A stretch of 64,000 nucleotides of DNA, taken from the NCBI RefSeq assembly GCF_002158995.1, contig NZ_LOHF01000001.1, positions 153,367-217,366 of the forward strand, in the 5' to 3' direction. The translations under genes were made by a program, and so were the position numbers. The stretch comes from Pseudomonas caspiana. GTDB taxonomy: Bacteria > Pseudomonadota > Gammaproteobacteria > Pseudomonadales > Pseudomonadaceae. Of the stretch, positions 2,727 to 19,811 are shown in pieces. Numbering within the stretch: position 1 is the first letter of the stretch; the number at the start of each line of letters is the position of its first letter. The notes beneath the pieces are model-generated. The model saw nothing but the letters and a program-made list of their open reading frames with translations, searched no databases and was not told the origin of the DNA.

Positions 2727-2869
2727 ATCCCTTGCTGACGTTCGTCAACGACACCCAACACCCCGCCGTTTTTCGCAACAAGCTGGCAATACTCGCTTGT
2801 GGCACGCCACTATCGCTCTCCAACGCGCAGTCCAGAGCCTTCAACGCTTACGCTAGAGTGCAGGAAAAG

Positions 2870-3723
2870 ATGAATACCCATTTCTTCAAAGTCGTCCAGA
2901 CCGTTGCTTTCCATGGCTCGTTTTCGGAAGCTGCGGCGATTCTGGGGTGCAGCCAGTCGAATATCAGTTACGCCATTAAAGAGGTGGAGGATTACTTCAA
3001 CAAACGGCTGTTCATTCGTAGCCGGGCCGGTTGCACGCTTACGCCGGAGGGCCAGGTCATCAGCCGCACGCTGGACAGTCTGCTGGCGACCCTTGAGCAA
3101 CTAAAAAAAATGAGCTCGGCGGCAGTGTCGCGATTCGTTACTGCAACCACATAGACGAAACCTCCCTGACCGGGTGTATCGAGGCCATGACGCGACTGCA
3201 TCCGGGTGTGCAGCTGAGTGTGGTGCAGGGGAGCGAGCAGCAGCCATCTCTGGATGTGCTGCGCAGGGAAGGCGCGGACATTCTGATTCTGCCCAGTCCG
3301 CTCCTTGATGAGCATCACATTGAGCACGTGCAGTGGTCTGACGCCTACGTGCTGGTCGCGGCCCGAAACCGTTCACTGACCCCGCGCCCTTTCCACGAGC
3401 TGTGTGAAAGTGTGCGTTATGTGTCCTGGCGGCACGCCGGGGTGGAACGGCTGCACAGCCAACTCGCCGCTGCGCAGGTACGTCTCAGCCATCGTGGGGA
3501 ACTGAGCTGCGTTGCGACGTTGCTTGATCTTGTCGCGAAGGGGCAGTGCATGACGATCCTGCCCAGCCGCCTGATTCCGGACGACAGTCATTTGTACGAA
3601 TGCATTCGCTTGCCAGTACAAATTGAGCGCAGCATCAGCGTGATCGCCCGGCCGGGTTCGCTGCTGTCCAATGCGGCGAATGAAGTGATTGAAGTGCTGA
3701 AAAGGCTGCCGGTGGGTGGTTAG
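2870..3723 (+). pseudogene. LysR-family regulator split by a -1 frame change at an A8 tract
   Basis: The ATG at 2870 follows AGGAA. Frame one encodes a normal LysR winged helix-turn-helix (FSEAAAILGCSQSNISYAIK, then LTPEGQ) up to the run of eight A at 3103-3110, then runs out of frame to TAG 3152-3154. The effector-binding domain continues in the -1 frame from about 3109 to TAG 3721-3723 (ELGGSVAIRY through VLKRLPVGG). Joined, the product is about 285 residues, normal for LysR. The zero-frame bases at the junction read A-AAA-AAA, a classical -1 slippery heptamer, and adding one A would also restore the frame. It may be a programmed frameshift, a contingency tract, a recent mutation or a sequencing error. 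The truncated form would keep only DNA binding. Confidence 0.75.
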
Positions 3724-5127: not shown

Positions 5128-5790
5128 TCAGCCGGTTGAAACCGTCAGCGAGCGGAGAAAGTCGGCGAAACCACCTGCTGCACGCGCTTCGAGCCGAGTG
5201 CTGGTGGTGACGCGGGGCCGGCAACTCCAGGCAATGCGTGCGCCATTCAATTCCAACTGCCGAATCAATTGCACGTCTTCATGACACGCGAGCGGCGGGA
5301 ACCCGCCCGCCAATCGATAAGCTGCCGCGCTGATGCCCAGATTGGCACCGTGGACGTGGCGATGACCATCACGATGCTGATAGTGCTGTTGATAGCGAAT
5401 CTGTGCTTCAAGGGGAATATCGTCCTGCCATACGCCCGGTGTGACAGTCCCGCACACCGCGTCTGCATCCAGTGCTAACTGTTCCACCAGCCAGTCTTCG
5501 GCGACGGTGCTATCGCCATCGGTGCAGGCAATCCAGCGGGCACCTTGCTCCAGCAGCAACGCCGCGCCCGCAGCCCGGGCCTGCCCAACGTTGCGTACGC
5601 TGACCTCAATAGCGTCCACAGCGTATCTCTGTGCGATTACGGCGGAACCGTCGGTGCAGCTATCCAATACCGCTAACACCACAACATGCTCACCGCCCAG
5701 GGCGGGATGCTTGCTTGCCTGCAATATGGTTTCAAGGCACTGACCGAGCAATAGCTCTTCGTTGTGGACCGGAATCAGAACGCCAATCAT
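5128..5790 (-). CDS. family 2 glycosyltransferase (last gene of the glgX-coupled cassette)
   Basis: A 220-residue GT-A fold protein. It opens with VLIPVHNEE, has LDSCTDGS in the nucleotide-binding region, the metal-binding DGD at residues 91-93, and GGFPPLACHEDVQL, where ED (171-172) is the probable catalytic base region. There is no transmembrane helix, so it is probably cytosolic, and the donor is likely a nucleotide sugar. It is shorter than polymerising family 2 enzymes, which argues for a single transfer. Its ATG overlaps the upstream methyltransferase stop as ATGA (5787-5790). No terminator is obvious in the 24 bases before the convergent hydrolase gene. Donor and acceptor are unknown. 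Confidence 0.85.
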   Translation of the reverse strand: MIGVLIPVHNEELLLGQCLETILQASKHPALGGEHVVVLAVLDSCTDGSAVIAQRYAVDAIEVSVRNVGQARAAGAALLLEQGARWIACTDGDSTVAEDWLVEQLALDADAVCGTVTPGVWQDDIPLEAQIRYQQHYQHRDGHRHVHGANLGISAAAYRLAGGFPPLACHEDVQLIRQLELNGARIAWSCRPRVTTSTRLEARAAGGFADFLRSLTVSTG

Positions 5791-6386
5791 CGTAGATTTT
5801 CCTTTTCTGCGACTGATGTTTCATCACGGCTCCACACGTCGAGGAAAAAGTCCGCTTCGTGATGGCTGAAAATCCGTGGCATGTTCAAGCGTGCCGCAAG
5901 GATTGCGTGAACCTTTTCCGCATCCAGCGGGCAGCCTTCGATCTGTGGTCGCCAGTGGCAAGCCAGTAATTGCCCTTCATCGGTCAGAGACGCCAGGGCG
6001 TGATCAATCCAGCTATTGAGATCTTGCTCGTCCAGGTAGTAACCCAGTTCGCTCAGTACAATCAGATCAAAGCGTGCGTCCGGCCATTGCTCCGGCAGTC
6101 GCCCATGCATGACTTCTACATGGTTGAACGCCACAAGCCGCTGACGTGCCAGTTCAACCGCTGAACGGTTGGTATCGCAGACCAGCAATCGATCGCAGCG
6201 AGTCGCCAGGTCGGCACTGAGCTCGCCATTGGCGCAGCCTGGCTCGAACGCCGACACGTAACGTTCACGGGGCAGGGCGGCGAGGGTCAGCGCGCGCTTG
6301 CGGCGCTCATACCAGCGCTTCTTGAACGCCCATGGATCATCGCTTTTTTGAAAAAGCTGTTCGAAGTAGCTGTCATCGACGCTCAC
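5787..6386 (-). CDS. NodS-like class I SAM-dependent methyltransferase
   Basis: A 199-residue Rossmann-fold methyltransferase. Motif I is FEPGCANGELSADLA (residues 47-61), followed by an acidic post-I end (LLVCDTN) and motif IV DLIVLSELGYYL. The N-terminal SDDPWAFKKRWYERRKRALTL and the ERYVSAFEPGC context resemble NodS, the N-methyltransferase that acts on a deacetylated chito-oligosaccharide in rhizobial Nod factor synthesis. That specificity is inferred, not shown. It starts at GTG 6386, which overlaps the deacetylase stop as GTGA (6383-6386), and it ends overlapping the glycosyltransferase start. The likely methyl acceptor is an amine exposed by the PIG-L enzyme encoded just upstream. Confidence 0.85.
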   Translation of the reverse strand: MSVDDSYFEQLFQKSDDPWAFKKRWYERRKRALTLAALPRERYVSAFEPGCANGELSADLATRCDRLLVCDTNRSAVELARQRLVAFNHVEVMHGRLPEQWPDARFDLIVLSELGYYLDEQDLNSWIDHALASLTDEGQLLACHWRPQIEGCPLDAEKVHAILAARLNMPRIFSHHEADFFLDVWSRDETSVAEKENLR

Positions 6387-7144
6387 AGAAAAACCACCTC
6401 GAAAGGTTGCATCAAGCGCTCCAGCACATCCGGGGCCAATACCGGCGGCAGACCGATCTTGGGATCACCGGCCAGTTGGCTGGCAAAAGCATGAGCGGCG
6501 TGGCGTTTGCGGGCGATGGTGGACGGATCAAGCGCAATCTTGCGGGCGCGCTCCCAAGGTATCCGGTCATCTTCTGGAGACGCCCAGTGCCACGCCCAGA
6601 CGGGCACTTCATGCAAGCGCGCCCCTGCGGCGCTGGCGGCTCGGGCGCTGGCGCGGCCGACTGCTTCGTGGTCACTGTGGCCGTCGTTTGCCCATGTTGT
6701 GAACACCACATCATCTGGCTGCAGGTAGCGGGTAATGAAGCTGGTGAGTTGATCTTCCTGCTCGGCGACAGTCGTGTCCTCAAAGCCGCCACGTATCCAT
6801 TTCAGCGCATGCATGGGCAGATCCAGCCGGCGCAAGGCCTCAGCGCTTTCCTGAGGACGGATAACGCTCAGACGTTCCGCTGGCCAGTCGGCAGAGCCCG
6901 GATGGCTGGCACTGCCGTCGGTAACCGAGATCAGCTTTAGCGGCCGACCGAGTTGCGTCAGTTGATACATCAACCCGCCGCAGCCAAGGACTTCATCGTC
7001 CGGGTGAGGAGCGATGATTACGGCGCGGGAGTTGACCGGAACCAGTTCTTCGACACTGATCGACGATATTGCGGCCAGTTTTTTCGAACCGTTCCAGGCC
7101 TGCAGCGAGGTGCCGCTGCCGACGATGGGGTTATTGTCAGTCAT
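6383..7144 (-). CDS. PIG-L family (LmbE-like) N-deacetylase
   Basis: This 253-residue protein has the zinc-binding PIG-L signature APHPDDE (residues 45-51) followed by LGCGG, and a later HSDHEAVG supplying the third ligand. Family members (PIG-L, MshB, BshB, LmbE) remove acetyl from N-acetylglucosamine-type sugars linked to lipids or small molecules, so an N-acetylhexosaminide is the expected substrate (family knowledge). The chosen ATG at 7144 overlaps the acyl-CoA dehydrogenase-like stop as ATGA (7141-7144); a GTG three codons upstream is possible but less likely. About 40 residues precede the catalytic domain. It sits between a flavin-enzyme gene and a NodS-like methyltransferase gene. Confidence 0.88.
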   Translation of the reverse strand: MTDNNPIVGSGTSLQAWNGSKKLAAISSISVEELVPVNSRAVIIAPHPDDEVLGCGGLMYQLTQLGRPLKLISVTDGSASHPGSADWPAERLSVIRPQESAEALRRLDLPMHALKWIRGGFEDTTVAEQEDQLTSFITRYLQPDDVVFTTWANDGHSDHEAVGRASARAASAAGARLHEVPVWAWHWASPEDDRIPWERARKIALDPSTIARKRHAAHAFASQLAGDPKIGLPPVLAPDVLERLMQPFEVVFL

Positions 7145-8160
7145 AGTTGCCACATCCGTGATGGCGTGATTGCAGCCTTTTGGGCTGTCAGATCACCCAG
7201 TGCTGCCAGGTCGCGCTCTGCATGACTCTGGCGCAGGAATACCGGGAGGTCAGCGATCAGCCGGGCGAAATGCGCATCCTTGCAATAAGGGCCTGCGCCC
7301 AAGGCACGGCCCACATGCAGAATCACTTGCTCGGCATTGTGTTCAATTACCGCCCGACTACGACGCGCTAACACCTGCGTGTCGGCGCTCGGGGTCTGGT
7401 CTATTTGCCGGGCTGCGTGTTGCAGGGCAGCCCAGGAGCTATGCATTGCCACATCAACCGCGCCCAGATGGGCGAGGGTGTGCGGCTCTTGTGTTTTCGA
7501 TGCCTGTTGCACCAGGCGCTGGGCCAAAGCCCGGGAAGCGCCATACCAGCAGGCGGCGATACCGATCCCGCCCTGCCAGAAGCCGGGTCTGGCCAAATAG
7601 TCGCCGGGTTTACCAATCGCCACGCCTTGAGCGCGGTCGAAGACTACTTCAACACTGCCAGTGGCGCCCATGCCCACGGCGCGCCAACCTTCCTGAGTAA
7701 TGCTGACGCCGGGCTGCCCGAGAGCGACGGCGACCAACTGTTGCTGGCCGTCTTCGTCCCACGCGGTCATCAACGCATGGCTGAGGACCGCAGCACCCGA
7801 ACACCAGGCTTTACGCCCGTTGATTTGCAGGTAGTCGCCTTTGCGCTGCACGTTGACCCGTGCCTGTGGCGGCTCAGCCGCCCACATACCCCAGCTGGTT
7901 CCTGTTTCGGGGGCGTTGACGCCCAGCTCATGGATGATGGCCAACGCATCGGTATGGCCTTCATACAATTTGCACAAACCCAGATCATGCCCCGCAACAC
8001 AGGCCAGTCCCTGCCAACGTTCAAGTATCTGACCGCTGGCAGGAAAGGGAAGCTGGTCCAGCCCTTCGTCGATCAGCGCCTGCAAGCACTCTCCCAACGC
8101 ACGCGTATCGGCGTAGCCGTGCTTGCGCCAGTCGAGAAACTCACTCAGCGCCTGACTCAT
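7141..8160 (-). CDS. acyl-CoA dehydrogenase-like flavoprotein, non-canonical active site
   Basis: A 339-residue protein with the acyl-CoA dehydrogenase fold: an N-terminal helical part, the middle beta-domain signature INGRKAWCSGA (about 113-124), MGATGSVEVVFD, and a C-terminal four-helix domain. It is shorter than ordinary family members (about 380-400). The usual C-terminal catalytic segment (EGT box) is absent and is replaced by LIADLPVFLRQSHAERDLAAL, so the usual glutamate base is not visible there. It could be a flavin monooxygenase, an N- or C-oxidase, or a dehydrogenase with the base elsewhere. Its ATG overlaps the glgX stop as ATGA (8157-8160), and its stop overlaps the deacetylase start. 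Confidence 0.8.
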   Translation of the reverse strand: MSQALSEFLDWRKHGYADTRALGECLQALIDEGLDQLPFPASGQILERWQGLACVAGHDLGLCKLYEGHTDALAIIHELGVNAPETGTSWGMWAAEPPQARVNVQRKGDYLQINGRKAWCSGAAVLSHALMTAWDEDGQQQLVAVALGQPGVSITQEGWRAVGMGATGSVEVVFDRAQGVAIGKPGDYLARPGFWQGGIGIAACWYGASRALAQRLVQQASKTQEPHTLAHLGAVDVAMHSSWAALQHAARQIDQTPSADTQVLARRSRAVIEHNAEQVILHVGRALGAGPYCKDAHFARLIADLPVFLRQSHAERDLAALGDLTAQKAAITPSRMWQL

Positions 8161-10352
8161 GGCTGCACATCATGTTGCAGTTCGAACAACAGCAGCGAAC
8201 GAGCGGTGACGGTGTAGTGATCACCAAAGCCGAATTGCTCACTGGCCTTCATGTCTGGCTGATTCGTGTCGATCAGGCAGGTCCAGTGTTCACCTTCAGG
8301 CACTTGCGGCAGCGTGAAGTTAACGCCGTCGTGGTGCGAGTTGACCACCAGCAGCAAGGTCGCGTCGGCGCCAGGTCGACGAATCCCTGTCTCTTGAGCG
8401 CGGCCGTCCATCAGCATGCCGAGGCAGCGAGCGTGGGCGTCTTCCCACTGTTCGATGCCCATCTCGTTGCCATCCGGCGACAGCCAGGTGACATCCTTGA
8501 CGCCGATTTCTTCGTTGTAATCGCCGACCAGGAAGCGACTCCGGCGCAGGATCGGGTAAGTCATACGGAGCTTGATCAGGCGCTTAACGAATTTGAGCAG
8601 CGATTTGCCGTCTTCATCCAGATCCCAGTTCACCCAGCCAATCTCGCTGTCCTGGCAGTAGGCGTTGTTATTGCCATGCTGGGTGCGTGCAAACTCATCA
8701 CCCGCGACCACCATTGGAGTCCCTTGCGCCAGCAGCAGGGTGGCGAAGAAGTTACGCATCTGGCGCAAGCGCAGCGCGTTGATTTCCGGGTCGTCGGTCG
8801 GACCTTCGACGCCATGGTTCCAGGACAGGTTGTTGTTGCTGCCGTCCTGGTTGTTTTCGTCGTTGGCCTCGTTGTGCTTGTCGTTGTAGGAGACAAGGTC
8901 ATGCAAGGTGAAACCGTCATGCGCGGTGATGAAGTTCACCGACGCTTGAGGCCTGCGACCACGCTGGTTAAACATGTTGCCCGACGCCGTCATGCGCCCG
9001 GCGAAGTCTGCCAGCTGGCCTTCATCGCCTTTCCAGAACGCACGCACGGTGTCGCGGAACTTGTCGTTCCACTCCATCCAGCCCGGTGGGAAACCACCCA
9101 CCTGATAGCCGCCGGGACCGCAATCCCAAGGCTCGGCGATCAGTTTCACCTGACGCAGCACGGGGTCTTGACGGCAGGCCACCAGGAAGCTGTGACGCTC
9201 GTCAAAACCATCGTGGTAGCGGCCGAGAATGGTCGCCAGGTCAAAGCGGAAACCATCAACGTGCATTTCCGTGGCCCAATAGCGCAGCGAATCTGTGACC
9301 ATTTGCAAGACGCAAGGGTGACTCAGATCGAGGGTGTTCCCAGTGCCTGAATCGTTGATGTAGAAACGTTTGTCGTCCGGCATCAGGCGGTAGTACGAGG
9401 CGTTGTCGATCCCGCGCATGGACAGGGTCGGGCCCAACTCGTTGCCTTCAGCAGTGTGGTTGTAAACCACGTCGAGGATCACTTCCAGCCCGGCATGGTG
9501 CATGTGCGCAACCATTTCCTTGAACTCGGCGATCTTGCCGTGAGCGAGGTACCGTGGATCAGGGGCAAAGAACGCAATGCTGTTGTAGCCCCAATAGTTG
9601 GTCATGCCTTTCTGCAACAGATGCTGGTCGTTGACGAAAGCGTGAATCGGCAACAGCTCAACGGAGGTCACGCCCAGCTTGCGGATGTGATCGATCACGT
9701 CAGCAACCATCATTCCCGAGAAGGTGCCTTTGAGTTCGTCCGGTACGGACGGGTGACGCATGGTGAAACCGCGAGTGTGGGTTTCATACAAAATGGTCTT
9801 GTCCCACGGCACGCTGACGCGCTGATCACGACCCCAGGTATAGGCCGGGTCGATGACCTTGCTTTTCGGCACGAATGGCGCGCTGTCACGCTCGTCAAAG
9901 CTCAGGTCGCCGTCCGGGTGGCCGATGGTGTAGCCAAACAGTGCTTCGGACCATTTCAGTTCACCAACCAGTTGCTTGGCGTACGGGTCGATCAACAGTT
10001 TGTTGTGGTTGAAGCGATGACCATTTTTTGGGTCATAAGGGCCGTAGACGCGGTAGCCATAAATCAGCCCTGGGTGGGCGTCAGGCAAGTAGCCGTGATA
10101 AATCTCGTCGGTGTATTCCGGCAACTCGATGCGTTCAAGTTCAACTTCGCCAGTGGAGTCGAACAGGCAGAGCTCAACTTTGGTGGCGTTGGCCGAGAAA
10201 ATAGCGAAGTTGACACCCAGGCCATCCCAGCTGGCACCGAGTGGGAAGGGCAGGCCTTCACGAATTCGCGATACGCTGGCTTCGACTTGATCGGCCTTGG
10301 CGGATGCACCTTTTGGACTGTCTTTCTTTGCGTTTTTGGACTGCGTGTTCAT
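8157..10352 (-). CDS. glgX: glycogen debranching enzyme GlgX
   Basis: A 731-residue GH13 isoamylase-type enzyme that hydrolyses alpha-1,6 branch points of alpha-glucan. An N-terminal CBM48-type domain (LPFPLGASWDGLGVNFAIFS) precedes the catalytic barrel, which shows VVYNHTAEG, the nucleophile motif DGFRFDLATILG, and IAEPWDCGPGGYQ with the acid/base glutamate. I chose ATG 10352 because AGGAA lies about 9 bases upstream and an upstream candidate at 10409 adds an Arg-rich stretch without support. The first 40 residues are a Lys/Ser/Ala-rich, probably disordered leader. It is 158 bases downstream of the DUF2934 gene, with a long hairpin between them, and its stop overlaps the next gene. Confidence 0.95.
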   Translation of the reverse strand: MNTQSKNAKKDSPKGASAKADQVEASVSRIREGLPFPLGASWDGLGVNFAIFSANATKVELCLFDSTGEVELERIELPEYTDEIYHGYLPDAHPGLIYGYRVYGPYDPKNGHRFNHNKLLIDPYAKQLVGELKWSEALFGYTIGHPDGDLSFDERDSAPFVPKSKVIDPAYTWGRDQRVSVPWDKTILYETHTRGFTMRHPSVPDELKGTFSGMMVADVIDHIRKLGVTSVELLPIHAFVNDQHLLQKGMTNYWGYNSIAFFAPDPRYLAHGKIAEFKEMVAHMHHAGLEVILDVVYNHTAEGNELGPTLSMRGIDNASYYRLMPDDKRFYINDSGTGNTLDLSHPCVLQMVTDSLRYWATEMHVDGFRFDLATILGRYHDGFDERHSFLVACRQDPVLRQVKLIAEPWDCGPGGYQVGGFPPGWMEWNDKFRDTVRAFWKGDEGQLADFAGRMTASGNMFNQRGRRPQASVNFITAHDGFTLHDLVSYNDKHNEANDENNQDGSNNNLSWNHGVEGPTDDPEINALRLRQMRNFFATLLLAQGTPMVVAGDEFARTQHGNNNAYCQDSEIGWVNWDLDEDGKSLLKFVKRLIKLRMTYPILRRSRFLVGDYNEEIGVKDVTWLSPDGNEMGIEQWEDAHARCLGMLMDGRAQETGIRRPGADATLLLVVNSHHDGVNFTLPQVPEGEHWTCLIDTNQPDMKASEQFGFGDHYTVTARSLLLFELQHDVQP

Positions 10353-10510: not shown

Positions 10511-10933
10511 TCAAGGCGCTGAAGGTTTTACTGCTTTTTTTGCGGCAGGCTTTGCAGCAGGTTTTGCTGCGGGCTTGGCGGCTGGTTTTGCAGGCTGCTC
10601 GGCCTGAGTAGCCGCTGGCGCTGGTTTGCTTTTCACCGGTGCAGGTTTGCTGGCCGGTTTGGCGGCAGGCGATTTGGCGGCCGGTTTAGGCGCTGCCTTC
10701 GGTGCAGATTTTGCCGCAGCAGGCTTGGCTTTATCGGCTGCCGGTTTTGCGTCGACCTTCGGCAACTTTGGCTTGGTAGCCTTGCGTGCGGTTGACTTGT
10801 CCGGCGCCAGGGCTTCGGCTTCAGCCAGCTTGCGAGCCATTTCCCAATGGCGTGCATCCTGGCCCGAAGGTTTCCCCTCTGATTCCCATATCTGATACGC
10901 AAACTCGCGAATTCGCTTTTCGTCGGCACTCAT
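10511..10933 (-). CDS. DUF2934 protein with histone H1-like Lys/Ala/Pro tail
   Basis: A 140-residue protein in two parts. Residues 1-45 form a DUF2934 domain (RIREFAYQIWESEGKPSGQDARHWEMA), a short helical motif common in proteins encoded near glycogen and trehalose genes. The remainder is a low-complexity Lys/Ala/Pro tail with repeated KPAA units, resembling histone H1 or AlgP tails and very basic. The function is unknown; the tail could bind nucleic acid or a polyanion, or the protein could associate with glucan granules. It starts at ATG 10933, 17 bases after the treY stop, so it is in the operon. The DNA encoding the tail is a degenerate tandem repeat that may vary in length between strains. 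Confidence 0.85.
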   Translation of the reverse strand: MSADEKRIREFAYQIWESEGKPSGQDARHWEMARKLAEAEALAPDKSTARKATKPKLPKVDAKPAADKAKPAAAKSAPKAAPKPAAKSPAAKPASKPAPVKSKPAPAATQAEQPAKPAAKPAAKPAAKPAAKKAVKPSAP

Positions 10934-10950
10934 CTCGACACTCCCAGGTT

Positions 10951-13731
10951 TTACTTAGTCTGAATAAGCAGGTTTACAGAAAATTCCTCGAGTGCTGCGC
11001 TGAGCAGCAACTCCTTGTCTGTTGTGACTACGGCGTCTGAAAAAAGTCCCTTCCAGTTTCGACTGGCATCCGCGAACGGTATAACGACCCGCGTATCTCC
11101 CCAATTTGCCGCATTGATGAATGGAGTTTGGGCAGTGCCCAATAGTTCATTGCTCAGGCGTGGCACAACAACGATAGCCTGTTCTTCGCCGAGAACACGG
11201 GCGAATGCCACGACGTGCTCAGCCTGGCTACCCAGCACCTGCAGCGGCACATAATCACCCTGACTGAACAGCTCGGAGTGTGTGGCCCGCAGGTTCAGCA
11301 CTTGATGGATCAGTGCTTGCTTGATCCGTCCGTTTTGCCAGGACCCCAGCAGATCACTCACGGTGGACGCCTGACTTAAAGCGTCCTTTCGATCTGCGTA
11401 ATCCACGGGACGGCGGTTATCTGGATCGACGAGGCTGAAGTCCCAATACTCGGTGCCCTGATACAAATCAGGAACGCCGGGTGCAGTCATGCGAAGCAAG
11501 GTTTGCGCCAGACTGTTTAATGCTCCACTGGTGGCAATGCGGTTGGCGGTGGCCCCTAGCGACTGACGCAAAGCGAGCCCCTGCGGGCTGAGCAAGATGT
11601 TCTGCAGGAACTCCCGACACGCGCGTTCATAGGGCTCGTTGGCTGCGCTCCAGCTGCTTTGCAGCTTGGCTTCACGCAGAGCTTTTTCTTGCCATTTGAC
11701 GAGGCGCTCTGAGTAGTTTTCGAACTCATCGTCCTGTATGTCCAGCGGCCAGCTGCCGAGCATGGCTTGATACAGCATCAGCTCGTCGCCCGGGCTGATG
11801 GCGTTTTCTTCGCCTTTAAGGGGGATGGCCAACTGGCGCCACCGCTCAACCTGTTCGGCATACCAATCTGCACACTCACTGAGCACCGCCAGCCGGGTGC
11901 GCGTGTCTTCGCCCCGCTTGTGATCGTGGGTTGCCGTGGTCAACAGGTTTTCAGGGAAGGCTTGGCTACGAGCAACGCAAGCAGCGTGGAAATCCACTAC
12001 CGGCGCGCTGAAGTGCTGCGGATGAAAGCCGACGTCGTTACGCGACAGCAACACGGCGCTGCGGTAGAACGAGGTGTCTTCCACTGACTTGGCAGCCACC
12101 GGGGAGGTGAGTTGCTGGAAGCGCACGCAGGCGTTTTTGTTCAGCTTGCGTTGCTTGCCCCGAGGCAGCTTGCGCCACGAATCACCGCCGAGCCAGCGCT
12201 GCAGATAATCCAGCACTGGCCAATCGGCTTCGCTCAACATCGTGCGTGCGCCTTGCATGGCCTGCTGGAAGAAACGCTCATCTTCGGCCGAGCGACCGCA
12301 TACGCTGATATAGGTCCGGTAAATCGGGAAGTTCACCACCAGCGCGAGCAAGGACCGGCGAATCGCACCCAGGGTCAGGTCGCGGCTCATCAAGTCACTG
12401 CGCGCCACTTGCAGCAAGGACTGAGCGACGTTTTCAAAGTCACCCGCCAGCGTGCCGTGCAGCACCAGATCCCGCGCTTCAAGGACCTCCTGATCAAAGT
12501 CGGCAGTACGTTCGCTGATGCGGCTCCAGAGTTCGGCCAGAGGCTCCTGACCTTTTGGATCATGCTGCAACAGCGAGACCTGATTCATGAACTCGTAGCC
12601 GGTGGTGCCGTCGACACCCCAGTCTTCACGCAGCGATTCATCCGGGCCGAGGATCTTTTCCACGAAGATCGGCAAATGCGTCAGCTCAGTGCCTGCGGGA
12701 CGTGCCGCGAGGAGGCCGTTGACCCTGCGGCGCAATTTGCGGCAATAGCCACGCGGGTCAGCCAGACCGTCAATGTGGTCAATACGCAAGCCATCCACCA
12801 GGCCTTCGCTGATCAATTCGAATATCTTGCCGTGGGTGGCTTCGAACACATTGGGGCGTTCAACCCGCAAGCCGCCCAACTCGTTGATGTCGAAAAAGCG
12901 CCGCCAGTTGATGTCGTCACCCGCTGTACGCCAGCTGGCCAGACGGTAGTGTTGTGCTTCCAGTAAGCGGTGCAGACGATCAAAGCCTTCAGGTGTGGTT
13001 GAGTCGTAGCGCTGCATAGCCAGGTCAATGGCCTTGGCCACAGATTTGTCCTTGACCAGTTCAACCAGCTCGGCGCGGGCTTGTCTGGCCCGCTCCCATG
13101 CCTGAGGGAATTGATCCAGCGCGGCAAAGCGCTTGCTCAGTTCATCCAGCAGCGGGTTGTCGTCGGATTCAAGCAATGGCCCGTAGGTGCCAGGGTTGAT
13201 CGGGAAATGATGCTGATAATGCTCGATGTAGAACACACCGTGCCCCGGATCGAAGCGCAGCGGGATTTCGCCGGCTTGCAGCACAGTGCCGTAATCGGTG
13301 CTCAGAAACGGCAGCAGCAGTTGCCCTTTGAGCAACGGGTCCGGGGAGTGCCACTGAATGTCGAAGAAGTCTGCATACGGGCTGCGACGCCCCCATTCGA
13401 GCAGATCAAGCCACCAAGGATTGTCGTTACCGCCCACAGCCATGTGATTGGATACGATGTCCAGAATCAGCCCCATGCCTTGCTCACGCAGGGCGCTGAC
13501 CAGACGACGCAGCGCCGGTTCGCCACCGAGTTCCGGGTTGATCACGCGCGGGTCGACCACGTCATACCCGTGCATTGAGCCAGCCCGCGCCTTGAGCAGC
13601 GGGGAGGCGTAGATATGGCTGATACCCAGGCTGGCGAAGTAGGGCACCAGTGCCACCGCGTCGTCCAGGGTGAAGTCTTTATGAAATTGCAGGCGCTGTG
13701 TGGCTCGCAGGCTTTGCAGTGACCGACTCAT
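10951..13731 (-). CDS. treY: malto-oligosyltrehalose synthase TreY
   Basis: A 926-residue GH13 enzyme that isomerises the reducing-end alpha-1,4 bond of a maltodextrin to alpha,alpha-1,1, making maltooligosyl-trehalose. The N-terminus has TLDDAVALVPYFASLGISH and SPLLKARAGSMHGYDV, typical of TreY. Catalytic regions visible are LDIVSNHMAVG, VDGLRIDHIDGLADP (nucleophile Asp) and FVEKILGPDESL (acid Glu). The length is normal for proteobacterial TreY. Its ATG overlaps the malQ stop as ATGA (13728-13731), which suggests translational coupling. It feeds TreZ, encoded two genes upstream. The product is cytosolic. Confidence 0.95.
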   Translation of the reverse strand: MSRSLQSLRATQRLQFHKDFTLDDAVALVPYFASLGISHIYASPLLKARAGSMHGYDVVDPRVINPELGGEPALRRLVSALREQGMGLILDIVSNHMAVGGNDNPWWLDLLEWGRRSPYADFFDIQWHSPDPLLKGQLLLPFLSTDYGTVLQAGEIPLRFDPGHGVFYIEHYQHHFPINPGTYGPLLESDDNPLLDELSKRFAALDQFPQAWERARQARAELVELVKDKSVAKAIDLAMQRYDSTTPEGFDRLHRLLEAQHYRLASWRTAGDDINWRRFFDINELGGLRVERPNVFEATHGKIFELISEGLVDGLRIDHIDGLADPRGYCRKLRRRVNGLLAARPAGTELTHLPIFVEKILGPDESLREDWGVDGTTGYEFMNQVSLLQHDPKGQEPLAELWSRISERTADFDQEVLEARDLVLHGTLAGDFENVAQSLLQVARSDLMSRDLTLGAIRRSLLALVVNFPIYRTYISVCGRSAEDERFFQQAMQGARTMLSEADWPVLDYLQRWLGGDSWRKLPRGKQRKLNKNACVRFQQLTSPVAAKSVEDTSFYRSAVLLSRNDVGFHPQHFSAPVVDFHAACVARSQAFPENLLTTATHDHKRGEDTRTRLAVLSECADWYAEQVERWRQLAIPLKGEENAISPGDELMLYQAMLGSWPLDIQDDEFENYSERLVKWQEKALREAKLQSSWSAANEPYERACREFLQNILLSPQGLALRQSLGATANRIATSGALNSLAQTLLRMTAPGVPDLYQGTEYWDFSLVDPDNRRPVDYADRKDALSQASTVSDLLGSWQNGRIKQALIHQVLNLRATHSELFSQGDYVPLQVLGSQAEHVVAFARVLGEEQAIVVVPRLSNELLGTAQTPFINAANWGDTRVVIPFADASRNWKGLFSDAVVTTDKELLLSAALEEFSVNLLIQTK

Positions 13732-15806
13732 TGATCACGCTCCGCAGCTTGCAGGCGAGCCTGAGACAGCAACTCGACGCGTCGCGCGATTGCTGCATGG
13801 TCCATCAGATTTGCGCTCTGCCCTGGGATACGCCGCCGCCAGTTGGGGTGCTGCGGAGTGTCGCCTGGCAAGTTGAACTGTTCGGTGAGGCCCATGGCGT
13901 CTTCCATTGGTAGCAGCACCAGAGGCGCTCGTGTATGGCCGATATAGCGGATGCTGGCGTCAATCATCTGTTCATCTTGCGGTAAACCGTCGCTGAAGTT
14001 AGTCGAGTTCTGGCTCAGCACCTGGTGCAGTCCTTCACGTTCACGATGACGCTCCTGGCGCCAGTGTTCGGCCTGTTGTTGGTCAACCATGCCCAGGCGT
14101 AAATTCCAGGCTATATCGTTTTCTGCAAGCCAGCCGGCCAAGGTCGGCAGGTCGTGGGTGCTGGTGGTCGCCAATGCCTGATCTGACCAGTCGAGGATCG
14201 GCTTGAACTGCGCGTTGTTTTGCTCGAAGAGCAGTACGCGCATGCCGAGAATTGCCCGGGCGGCGAGCTTCTCGTGCAGACCGGGAGGCACCGTGCCCAA
14301 GTCTTCACCGAGAACAATCGCTTTGTGTCGCCACGATTCCAGACTCAACAGACGGAGCATGTCGTCCAACGGGTAATTAAGGTACGCGCCCTCGCTGGCT
14401 GGTGAGCCCAGCGGTACAACCCAGAGGCGCTGCAGCCCCATGACATGGTCGATGCGCAAACCGCCCGCATGGGCGAAGTTAGCGCGTAACATTTCGATGA
14501 AGGCGCGGAAGCCGTTGCGCTTCAGGCCTTCAGGGGAAAATGCAGAAATGCCCCAACTTTGCCCGGCACGGTTGAGAATATCCGGCGGCGCGCCAACGCT
14601 GAGCGCTGACAACAATTCATCCTGACGACTCCAGGCCTGACTGCCCGCGCCATCGGCACCCACGGCGAGGTCGGCAATCAGACCGACGCTCATGCCGCTG
14701 CTGCGGGCCGCGATCTGCGCGCGCTCCAGACCACGGGCCATCAACCATTGGGTGAAGGCATAGAAGCCGATCTGCTCGCTGTGATTAGCGGCAAAGCGGG
14801 CGATGGCTTCGCTGCGTGGATTCTTGAACTCTTCTGGCCATTCATGCCAGTTGTCGCTCATGCCCAGACGGGGGCATTCGTCACGGATTGCTTCAAAGCG
14901 GCAGTGGTTTTCCAACGCTTCACCGCCGCTGTGACGGAAGCTGTTGAAGTCCTCATGCAATGGATGATCGCTGCCGCTGAAGGCGTCATACAGCTTGCGC
15001 AGCACTTTCCATTTCGCACCGGCTGCGGCTGGCCAGTCAATCAGTGGTAATTCTTCAAGGCGTTTGAGTTCGTCGCCAAGCCCGGATTCCTCAACAGCCA
15101 TCCGCAACGCACGTTCACCCAGAATCGTACCCGGCGAACAGTACAGGCTATTAAGAAACAAGCGGCTGGAGGGCGAGTAAGGACTGTAGCGATGAGGATC
15201 ATTGGCGAACATGGCGTGGACAGGGCTGATCGCCAGTGCGTTTGCACCGCGTTCTCCCGCTGCGCGAGCGAGGCTTTCCAGCGCCTGGGTATCACCAAAG
15301 CCACCATCACCCTCACGGCGCAGTCCGTAGAGTTGAACGGTCAGCCCCCAGGCGCGGGGAACCCGGCTGTCGGTTGCCATAGCCAGACTGAAGCAGGTCG
15401 CTGGCGCCACGGCGATTGTCAGATGCTGACCGGCGATGTTCAGTTGCTGGTAACCCACTGGCGCGAGACCGGGCAGGGCGGCATTGGCAGTCAGATTGGC
15501 GTCGATGGTCGCGCCGTCTTCCAGATGCAACACAAAGGGCGTGCCGGGACTGAACCAGGCACTCAGATCCAGGTTGCTGCCATGTTCCACGGTCAATAGT
15601 GGTGGCGGAACAGCTTGATGATGGGCGTTTCTCAATTGCTGCAGGCTGCTATCGATCTGCAAATTGTCATCGGCCGGGAAGCCCAGGCAACCGAGCACTT
15701 TGCTCAGTACTTCAGGACTGACTCTCTGTGCCCGGCCGTTGGCATCGATCCAGTCGACTGACAAGCCCGCTTCAGTCGCCAGATTCTCTAATTGCTCATT
15801 GCTCAT
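13728..15806 (-). CDS. malQ: 4-alpha-glucanotransferase MalQ
   Basis: A 692-residue GH77 amylomaltase that transfers alpha-1,4-glucan segments between maltodextrins. The catalytic signatures are LRIDHVMGLQRLWVVP (nucleophile Asp), GEDLGTVPPG (acid Glu) and STHDLPTLAGW. The extended N-terminal domain beginning LENLATEAGLSVDW fits the long bacterial form. I start it at ATG 15806 because GGAGG lies 7 bases upstream; an earlier in-frame start at 15824 is inside treZ and has no such site. It overlaps treZ by 11 bases and treY by 4. Disproportionation would supply chain lengths suited to TreY and GlgX products. Confidence 0.95.
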   Translation of the reverse strand: MSNEQLENLATEAGLSVDWIDANGRAQRVSPEVLSKVLGCLGFPADDNLQIDSSLQQLRNAHHQAVPPPLLTVEHGSNLDLSAWFSPGTPFVLHLEDGATIDANLTANAALPGLAPVGYQQLNIAGQHLTIAVAPATCFSLAMATDSRVPRAWGLTVQLYGLRREGDGGFGDTQALESLARAAGERGANALAISPVHAMFANDPHRYSPYSPSSRLFLNSLYCSPGTILGERALRMAVEESGLGDELKRLEELPLIDWPAAAGAKWKVLRKLYDAFSGSDHPLHEDFNSFRHSGGEALENHCRFEAIRDECPRLGMSDNWHEWPEEFKNPRSEAIARFAANHSEQIGFYAFTQWLMARGLERAQIAARSSGMSVGLIADLAVGADGAGSQAWSRQDELLSALSVGAPPDILNRAGQSWGISAFSPEGLKRNGFRAFIEMLRANFAHAGGLRIDHVMGLQRLWVVPLGSPASEGAYLNYPLDDMLRLLSLESWRHKAIVLGEDLGTVPPGLHEKLAARAILGMRVLLFEQNNAQFKPILDWSDQALATTSTHDLPTLAGWLAENDIAWNLRLGMVDQQQAEHWRQERHREREGLHQVLSQNSTNFSDGLPQDEQMIDASIRYIGHTRAPLVLLPMEDAMGLTEQFNLPGDTPQHPNWRRRIPGQSANLMDHAAIARRVELLSQARLQAAERDQ

Positions 15807-17610
15807 CCTGTTCCTCCAGAACATCGGTTGCTATCAGGCTGACAATGGCCGTGTAAGGATTGAGGATGCCTCGTCGGGAAAGTTCTGCCGCATGTGGCAG
15901 GGTTTCGAAAACAACTCTGCCGCCTTTCCATTCCGGAGCGGTAACAGCGTGTTCGCTCAGATTGAGATCGATGCGCAACAGTGCGCCATCGCCCATCCTC
16001 CAGCGTGCTGACACAGCTCCCTCGCTCAGCACGTCTGCGCCCAGAGCATGGCTGCCAGGCAAGCGCGGTACGATGTGCTGGTGACGCAGGGCTAGCAGTT
16101 GTCGATAGAGCTCAAGCCAGCTGCGGTGGTCGCTGCCCTTGTCGGTTTCCAGATACACCGCGTCAAACGCTGGCCTGGAAGCTTCGAAGGTCGCCGGGTC
16201 GTTGGGGTCAGGGATATGTTCGCGCTTTTCTTCATCGGCAAAGGCTGCGAAGTCGGCGAACTCACTGCGTCGGCCTTCACGCACCGCGTCGGCCAATTCA
16301 CCATGGTGATCGGTGAAGAACAGAAACGGCTCGCTGGCGGCCCATTCATCACCCATGAACATCAGCGGGATCATCGGCGAGAGCAGCCACAATGCGGTCG
16401 CTGCCCGTAACGCCGGGCCGTGACAGATCTGCGGCAAGCGCTCACCAAAGGCCCGGTTGCCGATCTGGTCATGGTTCTGCAGGAACAAGACGAAAGCGCT
16501 CGGCGGCAGATGGCTGCTGGATTCGCCACGTGTGTGGCCGTGCCGGGTTGCTTCGCCCTGATACACGAAACCCTGACTCAGCAAGCGTGCGAGCTTATGA
16601 GTGGCCTGATGGGCAAAGTCCGAGTAATACGCGTCCGATTCGCCCGTCAACAACACGTGCAACGTGTTATGGCCGTCGTCATTCCATTGCGCGTCGTAGC
16701 CTTGTTCCAGCAGGCTGGCCTGGTTGAACTCGTTTTCCAGATTCAGCCAGACATGGCGCGGTGCGTCGATCTGCTCACGAACCTTCTGAGCGAATTCCTT
16801 CAGGAAAGTGTCGTCGTTGATGGCGTGTACAGCGTCCATCCGCAACCCGTCGAATCGATACTCCAGCAACCACATCAGGGCATTGTCGATAAAGAAATCA
16901 CGAACTTCTCGACGCCGGAAGTCGATTGCGTCTCCCCAAGGAGTCTTCACGTCGCTGCGGAAGAATCCTTTGGCGTAGCGTCCGAGGTAATTCCCGTCGG
17001 GACCGAAGTGGTTGTAGACCACGTCGAGAATTACCATCAGGCCGTAGCCGTGGGCGGTATCAATGAGATGTTTAAGCTGTTCTGGCGTGCCGTATGAGGA
17101 CTGCGGAGCGTAAGGCAACACGCCGTCGTAGCCCCAGTTGCGTTCGCCGGGGAATTGCGCGATGGGCATCAACTCAATGGCTGTCACCCCAAGTCCGGCC
17201 AGACGCTCCAGATGAGCCTCGACCCCGGCATAGCCGCCCAATGCCCCGACGTGCAGCTCGTAGATGACTGCTTCGTGCCAGGGACGGCCTTGCCAGCCGG
17301 TGTTTTGCCACTCATAGGCAAGTGGATCAACCACCATGCTATGGCCGTGGACGTCAGTGGATTGAGCACGTGAGGCGGGGTCGGGGACTTCAATCTCCCC
17401 ATCGATGTTGTAGCGGTAGCGAGTGCCCGCCGGGCAGCGGGCCTCAAGAATGAACCAACCTTCGTTTTGAGGGAGCATGGCCAGAGACTGGCCATCCTCA
17501 AGTTCAACACTGACGTAGTAGGCGTCGGGTGCCCAGAGGGCAAACCGCGTATAGCCAGAATCCAGCAAGATGGCGCCGTGGCGCCAGCTCTCGTCCGTAC
17601 GCAGAGGCAT
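15796..17610 (-). CDS. treZ: malto-oligosyltrehalose trehalohydrolase TreZ
   Basis: A 604-residue GH13 enzyme that releases free trehalose from maltooligosyl-trehalose made by TreY. It starts with an N-terminal beta-sandwich (TRFALWAPDAYYVSVELE), then shows VVYNHFGPDGNYLG, the nucleophile motif DGLRMDAVHAI, and WLNLENEFNQ in the acid region; FLQNHDQIGNRAFG is the seventh conserved block. The length matches TreZ (about 580-610). It begins 15 bases downstream of glgA and overlaps malQ by 11 bases, so the four genes glgA-treZ-malQ-treY form one transcription unit. The product is cytosolic. Confidence 0.95.
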   Translation of the reverse strand: MPLRTDESWRHGAILLDSGYTRFALWAPDAYYVSVELEDGQSLAMLPQNEGWFILEARCPAGTRYRYNIDGEIEVPDPASRAQSTDVHGHSMVVDPLAYEWQNTGWQGRPWHEAVIYELHVGALGGYAGVEAHLERLAGLGVTAIELMPIAQFPGERNWGYDGVLPYAPQSSYGTPEQLKHLIDTAHGYGLMVILDVVYNHFGPDGNYLGRYAKGFFRSDVKTPWGDAIDFRRREVRDFFIDNALMWLLEYRFDGLRMDAVHAINDDTFLKEFAQKVREQIDAPRHVWLNLENEFNQASLLEQGYDAQWNDDGHNTLHVLLTGESDAYYSDFAHQATHKLARLLSQGFVYQGEATRHGHTRGESSSHLPPSAFVLFLQNHDQIGNRAFGERLPQICHGPALRAATALWLLSPMIPLMFMGDEWAASEPFLFFTDHHGELADAVREGRRSEFADFAAFADEEKREHIPDPNDPATFEASRPAFDAVYLETDKGSDHRSWLELYRQLLALRHQHIVPRLPGSHALGADVLSEGAVSARWRMGDGALLRIDLNLSEHAVTAPEWKGGRVVFETLPHAAELSRRGILNPYTAIVSLIATDVLEEQDEQ

Positions 17611-17625
17611 CCATAAACCCCTTGA

Positions 17626-19215
17626 TCAATAGTGAAGTGCAGCACCCACGTTCTTTTTCAGCAAATCCTGATAGAGCTCTGCGTAAGGCTCTACCGCTTG
17701 ATGCCAGTTGAATGGAGCTGCCATGGCCCGGCAACGCATTGCGTTGAGCAGTGCAGGATTGGAGAACACGTTGAACGCGCGGTTCAATGCTTCTGTGTAG
17801 CTTTCGACCGTTGACTCGTCGAACAGAAAACCGGTTACGCCGTCTTCGATGGTGTCAGCCAGGCCGCCTGTGTTGCGGGCAACGGGCAACGAACCGAAAC
17901 GCTGGGCGTACATCTGGCTCAGTCCGCAAGGTTCGTAGCGTGATGGCATCAGCAAAAAGTCGCTGCCGGCAAACATGCGTCGGGCATCAGTCTCATTGAA
18001 ACCGATACGTACACCAATTCTGCCCGGGAAGCGTTCTGCCAGGGCGCGCATGGCGTCCTCTTCTTCAGGCTCGCCCCGACCAATGATTGCGATCTGGCCG
18101 CCGTTGTTGACGATGTGCTCTGCAACACCAATGGTCAGATCCAGACCTTTTTGGTAGACCAGGCGCGAAACCACGGCGAACAGCGGCCCAGTGGACGGAT
18201 CCAGCTCGAAGAGTTCACGCACGTGGTCGGCGTTGATTTCCTTGCGCTGCCATTCATTGGGCGCGAAGTGGCAAATCAAGTGCTCGTCGGTCGCCGCATC
18301 CCAGCTGGCATCGATGCCGTTCGGGATACCACTGAGCTGCCCACGGTTGGCTTTGTGCTGCAGGAAACCTTCCAGGCCGCAACCGAACTCAGGCGTGGTG
18401 ATTTCTTTGGCATAGGTCGCGCTGACCGTGGTGATGTGGCTGGCGTAGGCCATGCCGGCCTTGATAAAGGAGAGCTTGCCGTAAAACTCCATACCGTCGG
18501 AACTCAGCGCCTCATCCGGGATACCCAGTTCGCGACTGGATGCGGTGCTGACGGTGCCTTGATAAGCCAGGTTATGAATGGTGAAGATGGTTGGCGTGGT
18601 CTGACCGCGCCATTTCATGTAGGCCGGGGCCAGGCCTGCAGGCCAGTCATGGGCGTGAACCAGCTCAGGACACCATTGGGTTTTCACGGCGCCAGCTGCA
18701 AATTCGGCAGCAGCCAGACCCAGTCGGGCGAAACGAATATGGTTATCGGACCAGTCACGGCCCTGGTTGTCTGCGTAGGGAGTGCCTTCGCGCTCGTACA
18801 ATTCCGGGCAAATCAGCACATAGATGACCAGACCGTCTTTCATGTCCATTCGGCCGATCTTGCACGGAGGTAGTGCAGCATGTCCGCCCAACTGGCTGAT
18901 CACATGGATCGGGTTACCACTGTTGAGGACTTGCGGGTAGCCGGGAATCAGCACACGGACGTCGTGCAGGTGGCGCATGGCTCGCGGCAGCGCGGCAGAA
19001 ACATCACCCAACCCCCCGGTTTTTACCAGGTCAGCCAGTTCCGAAGTGACAAACAAGACTTTGCGCCTGTTGCTCGACACGATGGTTGGCTGCGTAACAG
19101 CAGGCAATTGCAGCAGTGGAACGCTCGTCGTAGCGAAAACCGGCAGATGAGTCAGCTCGCTGGCCGGCTGGTTAAAACTCTCTCCCTTCTGGGTTTTGAC
19201 AGCGGCGCTAATCAT
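17626..19215 (-). CDS. glgA: glycogen/maltodextrin synthase GlgA
   Basis: A 529-residue GT5 enzyme that adds glucose from a nucleotide sugar to the non-reducing end of alpha-1,4-glucan. The nucleotide-sugar loop KTGGLGDV (residues 65-72) and the C-terminal RYEPCGLSQMYAQRFGSLPV are clear. I start it at ATG 19215, which has GGGAG 8-9 bases upstream; the longer candidate at 19335 adds a Cys/Trp-rich stretch without support. Even so, about 50 residues precede the usual RKVLFVTSE start of the family, a Pro/Thr-rich extension. It is the first gene of the minus-strand array, with about 600 bases of upstream sequence. No glgC, glgE, treS or glgB is present in the window. Confidence 0.93.
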   Translation of the reverse strand: MISAAVKTQKGESFNQPASELTHLPVFATTSVPLLQLPAVTQPTIVSSNRRKVLFVTSELADLVKTGGLGDVSAALPRAMRHLHDVRVLIPGYPQVLNSGNPIHVISQLGGHAALPPCKIGRMDMKDGLVIYVLICPELYEREGTPYADNQGRDWSDNHIRFARLGLAAAEFAAGAVKTQWCPELVHAHDWPAGLAPAYMKWRGQTTPTIFTIHNLAYQGTVSTASSRELGIPDEALSSDGMEFYGKLSFIKAGMAYASHITTVSATYAKEITTPEFGCGLEGFLQHKANRGQLSGIPNGIDASWDAATDEHLICHFAPNEWQRKEINADHVRELFELDPSTGPLFAVVSRLVYQKGLDLTIGVAEHIVNNGGQIAIIGRGEPEEEDAMRALAERFPGRIGVRIGFNETDARRMFAGSDFLLMPSRYEPCGLSQMYAQRFGSLPVARNTGGLADTIEDGVTGFLFDESTVESYTEALNRAFNVFSNPALLNAMRCRAMAAPFNWHQAVEPYAELYQDLLKKNVGAALHY

Positions 19216-19811
19216 CGATTTCTCCCATTCAATACAGTGTCGGTACTGCATTAGATTTGTTATTGGCCATGTCCTATGGCCAGGCACACATGCGCTACGC
19301 AAGATCAGTACCCATTTACTGTTTGCGTTATTCACGGACAGACAGGTAGCGCCAAAATGCGGGCTCAGCCATCAGCATAGGCGCTCTTATGAGATGACCT
19401 GTGCGCGCAACGGAAAGTTTCGACTTTTTTTGTAGGAAATGTCTGGGATGGGCTTCAGAGCCTGATGGCGCGGGTGCAGATGTCGGCGATAAAACATGGC
19501 CAACCGCAACGATGCGCTTTGTTAGGGCGAAAAAAAGACCATGGGGCGTAGACATTACCGGTCGTCGGATTGTTGGACGATGACGCGTCAGCGCTTTAAA
19601 AATGGGCGCGACAGGTGCCTACGTAGTGCAGAAATAATGTCTTAACGCGATCCAGGCCTTTTCTTGGTGCGGCTGTCGCTTATTCCTAGGGCGCCTGTGG
19701 AATTTTCCTCGTCGTTGATCGAAACATTTTCGGGCATGCCGAGATAGAATCGGGCACCCGACTCGGATTGAGTCAGTCCTGTTCGTGATTAAGTGACAGC
19801 AAGAGGATGTA
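19216..19811. other. 596-base intergenic region upstream of glgA and the GNAT gene
   Basis: This divergent promoter region contains no ORF I can support. It holds a short hairpin GGCCAT/ATGGCC (19265-19281) in the probable glgA leader. A weak plus-strand terminator-like element lies at 19414-19431, AAAGT-TTCG-ACTTT followed by a T-run. I could not assign promoters for glgA, which is expected to be osmotic- or RpoS-responsive (inference). Confidence 0.4.

Follow-up and report, generated by a model that had tools for sequence, protein, structure and literature searches.

Four short genes follow glgX on the minus strand of the stretch of Pseudomonas caspiana DNA analysed here (64,000 nt; hereafter the window). 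They raise the question of whether they make up one pathway and, if so, whether that pathway belongs to alpha-glucan metabolism. The genes encode a predicted flavoprotein with the acyl-CoA dehydrogenase (ACAD) fold, a PIG-L N-deacetylase, a NodS-like methyltransferase dependent on S-adenosylmethionine (SAM) and a small GT2 glycosyltransferase (Table 1). We found that this cassette is a real conserved unit and that its link to glgX is local to this lineage, one context among several. As to function, we tentatively propose, as a reading somewhat more likely wrong than right, a mobile four-enzyme biosynthetic stress-response module for an N-deacetylated, methylated, oxidised glucosamine glycoside.

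The comparison took in 139 loci. Plasmid records gave 6 of them, same-genus relatives 21, an even sample of the phylum 32 (one phylum match, G363, was left out) and a scan of named genomes 80 (the best 80 of at least 530 relatives of the ACAD protein, with cassette membership counted in those 80). All four proteins were readable without a stop in 90 of the 137 loci having the ACAD gene (tblastn). Among related loci, 4-base overlaps were present at 88 of 113 measurable ACAD/PIG-L junctions, 92 of 113 PIG-L/methyltransferase junctions and 86 of 96 methyltransferase/GT2 junctions; pairs up to 400 bases apart were counted and the start codon was taken as the in-frame one closest to −4, so these counts lean upward. 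For comparison, in 50 kb of one annotated Pseudomonas plasmid such overlaps join 4 of the 31 pairs of adjacent genes that run in one direction. Overlaps at the inner junctions are thus more frequent than chance. Protein distances of the four members correlate at 0.84–0.90 over the 90 loci and at 0.66–0.77 in distant pairs.

Cassette relatives occur in Pseudomonadota, Actinomycetota, Deinococcota and Cyanobacteriota. Kitasatospora has all four genes, with overlaps ATGA, ATGA and GTGA; in Nostoc and Deinococcus the ACAD, PIG-L and methyltransferase genes adjoin and the glycosyltransferase gene is on the opposite strand. The earlier note had treated the four genes as one set, and had stated that the coupling would be incidental if their homologues were rarely adjacent. 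The set holds together, and both adjacency and overlaps recur across phyla. The distribution is patchy. The ACAD profile matched in 34 of 398 genomes of the phylum at 1e-25 (the genome of the window included), in 6 of 337 and 7 of 369 genomes in even samples of two classes at 1e-30, and in 8 of 200 and 13 of 150 genomes in samples of two orders; some genomes are in more than one sample. Within the genus, 22 of 36 genomes carry the cassette.

Two loci depart from the usual layout. In a plasmid of Deinococcus sp. AJ005 (L238:6572-8935) the ACAD gene encodes 787 residues, of which ∼400 in front have no Pfam match, and is followed by a gene for UDP-galactopyranose mutase and more glycosyltransferase genes. 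In L124 (9905-18506) an open reading frame (ORF) of 1270 amino acids lies between the ACAD and PIG-L genes; its sole relative among the compared loci is downstream of the cassette of L132. Of the four cassette proteins only the methyltransferase matched the PADLOC defence models, with a partial mad2 match of 58.9 bits; for the rest there was no match at 0.001.

The identity of the ACAD-fold protein decides what chemistry the cassette may perform. A full ACAD fold is predicted (mean predicted local distance difference test score, pLDDT, 95.5). In acyl-CoA dehydrogenases the catalytic glutamate is that of the YEGT/S motif (E376 in medium-chain acyl-CoA dehydrogenase). At this position all 76 aligned cassette proteins have Q in a MAFFT alignment that includes four dehydrogenases from the same genome; the HH global alignment puts the position at S312 (S in 64 proteins, P in 7, A in 3, T in 1 and C in 1). 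Neither alignment places an acidic residue there in any of the 76. An ordinary acyl-CoA dehydrogenase was rejected as the identity of this protein. A search of PDB with the 76-row profile gave TdsC/DszC first (1.1e-15 to 3.4e-15), then 5z8t/5gj7 (9e-13); the first dehydrogenase, isobutyryl-CoA dehydrogenase, came at 1.6e-12, and MsuC (4.3e-12), KijD3 (2.1e-11) and DnmZ (3.3e-9) followed. The top ranks of Foldseek were 5gj7, DnmZ and KijD3. Because the catalytic position lacks an acid and the best profile matches are TdsC/DszC, a flavin monooxygenase is the better guess for this protein. Group D monooxygenases and acyl-CoA dehydrogenases have a common domain (PMC6165268).

The protein resembles DszC/TdsC, MsuC, KijD3, DnmZ and ORF36 in the fold and in the non-acidic dehydrogenase position, and its best profile matches lie in this group; however, it is a predicted enzyme with 16–19% identity to the compared ACAD-fold monooxygenases and sugar N-oxygenases. 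His92 is catalytic in DszC, and by a count made by eye it aligns with K64 of the cassette protein.

Several observations on the fold and the active site weigh against a monooxygenase. The two classes cannot be told apart by structure score, as Z is 31–33 for dehydrogenases and monooxygenases alike; the top Z of 32.8 (325 residues, root-mean-square deviation 2.6) belongs to isovaleryl-CoA dehydrogenase, tied with monooxygenases. The TM-score of isovaleryl-CoA dehydrogenase is 0.82 versus 0.71–0.79, and in Foldseek butyryl-CoA dehydrogenase is close behind the leading matches (4e-13 versus 2e-14). There is also a conserved acidic residue, E315, which is E or D in 74 of the 76 proteins. It is only three to four residues beyond the catalytic position, which leaves some chance that the alignment is shifted there. 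One might argue from the tied Z score, from E315 near the usual place and from the match to Pfam Acyl-CoA_dh_M above cut-off that the protein works as a genuine dehydrogenase on an acyl group borne by the glycan. We hold this to be very improbable, given the residues found at the catalytic position (Q by one alignment and S, P, A, T or C by the other) and the composition of the cassette, whose four proteins include no acyltransferase. Dehydrogenases of the isovaleryl type use an alternative catalytic glutamate; in the column that we read as its position (that of E241 in L249) the residue is W in 62 of the 76, S in 6, T in 2 and H, C and F in one each, with three rows unlisted. A flavin monooxygenase stays our better guess.

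The PIG-L protein has intact motifs. HPDDE is present in 105 of 107 first PIG-L copies (the other 2 were not resolved), and the motif residues, H156, D158 and H159 included, do not vary among the 13 rows of the alignment. The best evidence for N-deacetylation as the step comes from one case of replacement: in a plasmid of Rubrobacter indicoceani (L239:5904-10555) a PF01522 (NodB-type) deacetylase gene is beside the ACAD, NodS-like and GT2 genes, and zero genes of the stretch are annotated as PIG-L. The PF01522 fold differs from the PIG-L fold. The same cluster has a gene for a pyridine-nucleotide FAD oxidoreductase.

In eight genomes the first scan found no PIG-L at the locus, and a whole-genome profile search found one in six of them. 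In G149 and G382 it is part of the cassette after all, flanked by the ACAD and methyltransferase genes; in G191 it is ∼12 kb away, and in G003, G084 and G204 it is unlinked. By the same search at 1e-10 G308 has none, though tblastn finds a diverged one. In L053, the locus of G003, the ACAD and methyltransferase genes adjoin without PIG-L, and a strong PIG-L match (6e-104) is ∼330 kb off. A second PIG-L copy lies downstream of the GT2 gene in 37 loci (L132:13051-13857, L045:12386-13147 and 35 further Pseudomonas loci). All 37 of these copies have HPGDE in place of HPDDE, and the next motif His is mostly N or T; the copy is a conserved paralogue that is probably catalytically dead or altered.

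For the methyltransferase, the strongest PDB match was 4isc (2.8e-77), itself a methyltransferase without assigned function and a member of the same group as the cassette enzyme. Among proteins with a name its nearest relative is NodS, which is an N-methyltransferase (3ofj, 6.8e-12); the protein passes Pfam NodS (52.1 versus 24 bits) and misses the NCBIfam NodS equivalog cut-off (64.1 versus 300 bits). The glycosyltransferase passes PF00535 (42.5 versus 23.3 bits), its model (pLDDT 95.7) has the GT-A fold, and the DxD and ED residues (D91, D93, E171 and D172) are invariant in 56 rows.

The proposed pathway builds directly on the gene unit, the recurring overlaps, the motifs, the predicted fold, the non-acidic catalytic position and the neighbours. 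The GT2 enzyme would couple N-acetylglucosamine, or a similar N-acetyl sugar, to an acceptor, and PIG-L would remove the acetyl group; the NodS-like enzyme would methylate the freed amine; and the ACAD-fold flavoprotein would oxidise the product, on the nitrogen or on a nearby carbon. Here the donor, the acceptor, the order of steps, the sites of methylation and oxidation, the product and its expression under stress are what we infer. Two points count against the scheme at the level of its enzymes. The fold matches of the GT2 model span fucosyl, GlcNAc, GalNAc and mannosyl enzymes and single out no sugar. As for deacetylation, 17 of 24 loci have no match within the stretch to any of seven deacetylase queries, ten of them (from named records and others) being additional to the eight genomes above, and G375 has no PIG-L at 1e-10 in the whole-genome profile search.

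In the Nod factor pathway NodC, NodB and NodS serve as glycosyltransferase, deacetylase and methyltransferase. The cassette likewise combines a GT2 enzyme, an N-deacetylase and a NodS-type methyltransferase (in Rubrobacter even with a NodB-type deacetylase), but it has PIG-L in place of NodB and an extra ACAD-fold enzyme, and its methyltransferase scores far below the NodS cut-off. By analogy, the logic of the pathway may be that of the early Nod factor steps, with oxidation replacing acylation. Nine proteins of the window were scanned and none is a NodA-like acyltransferase; NodA was not sought elsewhere in the genome. Synthesis of mycothiol and bacillithiol (MshA-MshB, BshA-BshB) also runs from a glycosyltransferase to a PIG-L deacetylase, and BshB1 is the NCBIfam model that the cassette PIG-L matches best. 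This match (50.7 bits) is, however, below the BshB1 cut-off of 182.5, the glycosyltransferase is GT2 rather than GT4, and the four genes include no ligase.

What the acceptor might be is suggested by the neighbours of the cassette. It is perhaps a non-reducing disaccharide, trehalose or sucrose, because genes for the synthesis of these sugars recur beside the cassette. In two loci (L094 and L100) otsB-otsA run directly into the cassette in one direction, and in L099, from another family, treZ-malQ-treY-glgA do the same. In Legionella lytica (L032) a gene for a phosphoglucomutase/trehalose-phosphatase fusion and a GH65 gene lead into it; in L103 a sucrose-phosphate-synthase-like gene is first in a run with the cassette. 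The best NCBIfam matches of the sucrose-phosphate-synthase-like proteins and of the OtsA proteins (L094, L100 and L029) are below curated cut-offs, so these gene names are likely, not certain.

We counted such neighbours in 29 phylum-sample loci outside the genus (555 kb in total) and in 40 control stretches (800 kb), placed by hand at sites in some, not all, of the same genomes; the stress query proteins were picked from the plasmid loci seen first, and the ORF calls retain some antisense ORFs. Trehalose/glucan genes were near 5 of the 29 loci, catalase near 4, LigD/Ku near 3 and DUF421 near 2. At least one gene of trehalose/glucan, catalase, non-homologous end joining (NHEJ) or DUF421 type was near 10 of the 29 loci versus 0 of the 40 controls, and trehalose/glucan genes alone near 5 versus 0 (p 0.01). 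A sucrose-phosphate-synthase/phosphatase-like gene was found in three more loci (L103, L111 and L112), which raises the disaccharide/glucan count to 8 of 29 versus 0 of 40. For a repeat, the test was set down before the loci were fetched; one fragment (G1227) was left out. The repeat matches were glgX in L264, a sucrose-phosphate-synthase-like gene in L266 and glgX/treY/treZ in L270, with otsA in none. Joined over both samples, disaccharide/glucan genes were near 11 of 46 loci versus 0 of 60 controls; this count and the 8 of 29 are partly post hoc, as the three sucrose-phosphate-synthase cases came from inspecting recurrent neighbours.

The same survey also holds evidence unfavourable to a disaccharide product. 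The pre-specified repeat gave 3 of 17 loci versus 0 of 20 controls for disaccharide/glucan genes (p 0.09) and 2 of 17 versus 0 of 20 for catalase/NHEJ (p 0.20); the two sets joined gave 5 of 17 versus 0 of 20 (p 0.014), a joint test that was not pre-specified. In addition, 56 loci have no gene of the query set upstream. On these modest numbers, a broader association of the cassette with genes for making trehalose, sucrose or alpha-glucan, and with other stress genes, is likely.

It is quite possible, though we lean against it, that the neighbours merely share a stress regulon (RpoS- or EcfG-like) and that the product is chemically unrelated to trehalose or sucrose. LigD, Ku, catalase and DUF421 genes adjoin the cassette as well as disaccharide genes do, and contexts switch repeatedly on the ACAD tree (6 changes for NHEJ, 5 for catalase and 4 for ots). 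Furthermore, the disaccharide gene is on the opposite strand in L087, L095, L112, L264 and L266 and kilobases off in L111 and L270. On the other hand, genes of unlike routes run co-directionally into the cassette in L094, L100, L099, L103 and L032. Since a shared regulon would explain the same neighbours, trehalose or sucrose as acceptor stays a guess. The fullest form of the proposed glycoside pathway is unlikely: a cross-phylum route to a new class of stress metabolites, in which glucosaminyl derivatives of trehalose or sucrose would be N-methylated and then N-oxidised by amino-sugar specialists among the ACAD-fold flavoenzymes, the genes passing from host to host among stress genes.

If the proposal of a glucosamine glycoside is true, many bacteria carry an unread pathway near genes for protection against drying, salt and DNA damage, and a new product exists within trehalose and alpha-glucan physiology. 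It would also explain proteins labelled ‘acyl-CoA dehydrogenase’, ‘PIG-L deacetylase’ and ‘nodulation’ methyltransferase, and would offer four enzymes open to assay.

The remaining question is whether glgX has a part of its own. The genus has glgX in 33 of 36 genomes; the cassette is behind it in 16 of the 22 genomes with a cassette and elsewhere in 6. At the glgX/ACAD junction, 9 of 48 loci share 4 bases, whereas 36 leave a gap of 1 base. On the ACAD tree (82 rows) the glgX context is one change, with support of 85 by a quick method; such counts of changes cannot separate gain from loss. The glgX position probably arose by one insertion. The cassette follows LigD in several Pseudomonas (among them P. 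entomophila, P. putida 31303 and P. hunanensis), in Achromobacter piechaudii and in L087, from another genus of the same family, where a convergent glgX is also present. No glgX was found within the stretch at the otsBA, the sucrose-phosphate-synthase-like and most LigD contexts. Occurrence away from glgX, which the earlier note had suggested checking, is therefore observed both in the genus and in LigD, otsBA, treYZ and catalase contexts, and glgX was rejected as the partner that defines the cassette. The tie to alpha-glucan metabolism claimed there survives in the wider form given above, which rests on modest numbers; the coupling to glgX as such is not supported.

A functional glgX link would be expected if the cassette modified alpha-glucan itself, for example by placing a modified amino sugar on ends exposed by GlgX. 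The cassette is within 300 bases behind glgX in 50 loci, all 22 genus genomes with the cassette have glgX, and in L099 the cassette follows the treZ-malQ-treY-glgA genes outside the family. Still, we regard this explanation as quite improbable in view of the single tree change, the 6 of 22 genomes with the cassette elsewhere and the contexts without glgX just described (L087 having both LigD and glgX).

The glgA-treZ-malQ-treY-glgX operon upstream of the cassette is the one known from Pseudomonas. In the passages of PMC8084333 and PMC8982409 consulted, the accounts of the operon in P. aeruginosa and P. syringae list glgA, treZ, malQ, treY and glgX without the four genes, and ‘acyl-CoA’ and ‘deacetylase’ have 0 occurrences in the main text of either. 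The earlier note knew of no described pathway with this gene set, and we too found no account of one in the literature covered, outside of which lie most subscription papers and preprints not in PMC; the finding is hence weak evidence of absence. With this weight, the cassette may be an undescribed gene set beside a known trehalose/alpha-glucan operon.

Within the window, direct reading of the sequence confirmed the 4-base overlaps at all four junctions where they had been placed (Table 1). The family labels held as well: GlgX is above its NCBIfam cut-off, and the PIG-L, NodS, Glycos_transf_2 and Acyl-CoA_dh_M matches are above their Pfam cut-offs. Regular overlaps are not by themselves a sign of one complex, because malQ and treY, upstream of glgX, also share 4 bases (13728-13731); overlaps alone as proof of a complex were rejected. 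The minus strand between 4900 and 11000 shows no terminator-like site, and the cassette is presumably read together with the upstream trehalose/alpha-glucan operon. A scan for sigma-70 promoters gave zero sites and is uninformative on stress promoters. Upstream names were assigned by Pfam for DUF2934 and by TIGR00217, TIGR02402 and PRK00654 for malQ, treZ and glgA, each above its cut-off.

Table 1. Genes of the cassette, their junctions and the upstream genes, in window coordinates
Feature	Position	Strand	Evidence
glgX, glycogen debranching enzyme; adjoins the cassette upstream in this lineage, outside its core	8157..10352	-	TIGR02100 1093.4 bits, cut-off 640.9
ACAD-fold flavoprotein (predicted), 339 residues	7141..8160	-	Pfam Acyl-CoA_dh_M 36.6 versus cut-off 33.3
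PIG-L (LmbE-type) N-deacetylase, 253 residues, HPDDE and DxHxDH motifs intact	6383..7144	-	PF02585 1.9e-25
NodS-like SAM-dependent methyltransferase, 199 residues	5787..6386	-	PF05401 1e-13
Small GT2 glycosyltransferase, 220 residues	5128..5790	-	PF00535 8.7e-11
glgX/ACAD overlap ATGA	8157..8160	-	Read directly
ACAD/PIG-L overlap ATGA	7141..7144	-	Read directly
PIG-L/methyltransferase overlap GTGA	6383..6386	-	Read directly
Methyltransferase/GT2 overlap ATGA	5787..5790	-	Read directly
Upstream trehalose/alpha-glucan genes: DUF2934 protein, treY, malQ, treZ, glgA	10511..19335	-	Pfam and NCBIfam matches

Two further observations concern the surroundings. A gene for a LysR-type regulator on the plus strand (2732-3723) is apparently split into ORFs 2732-3154 and 3187-3723; the substrate domain is in the second ORF, and a helix-turn-helix was identified in the first by eye alone. 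More alpha-amylase-family genes, which we take to be perhaps a GlgE/TreS/GlgB cluster, are located at ∼75.7–81.5 kb of contig C1 of the same genome, some 80 kb from glgX.

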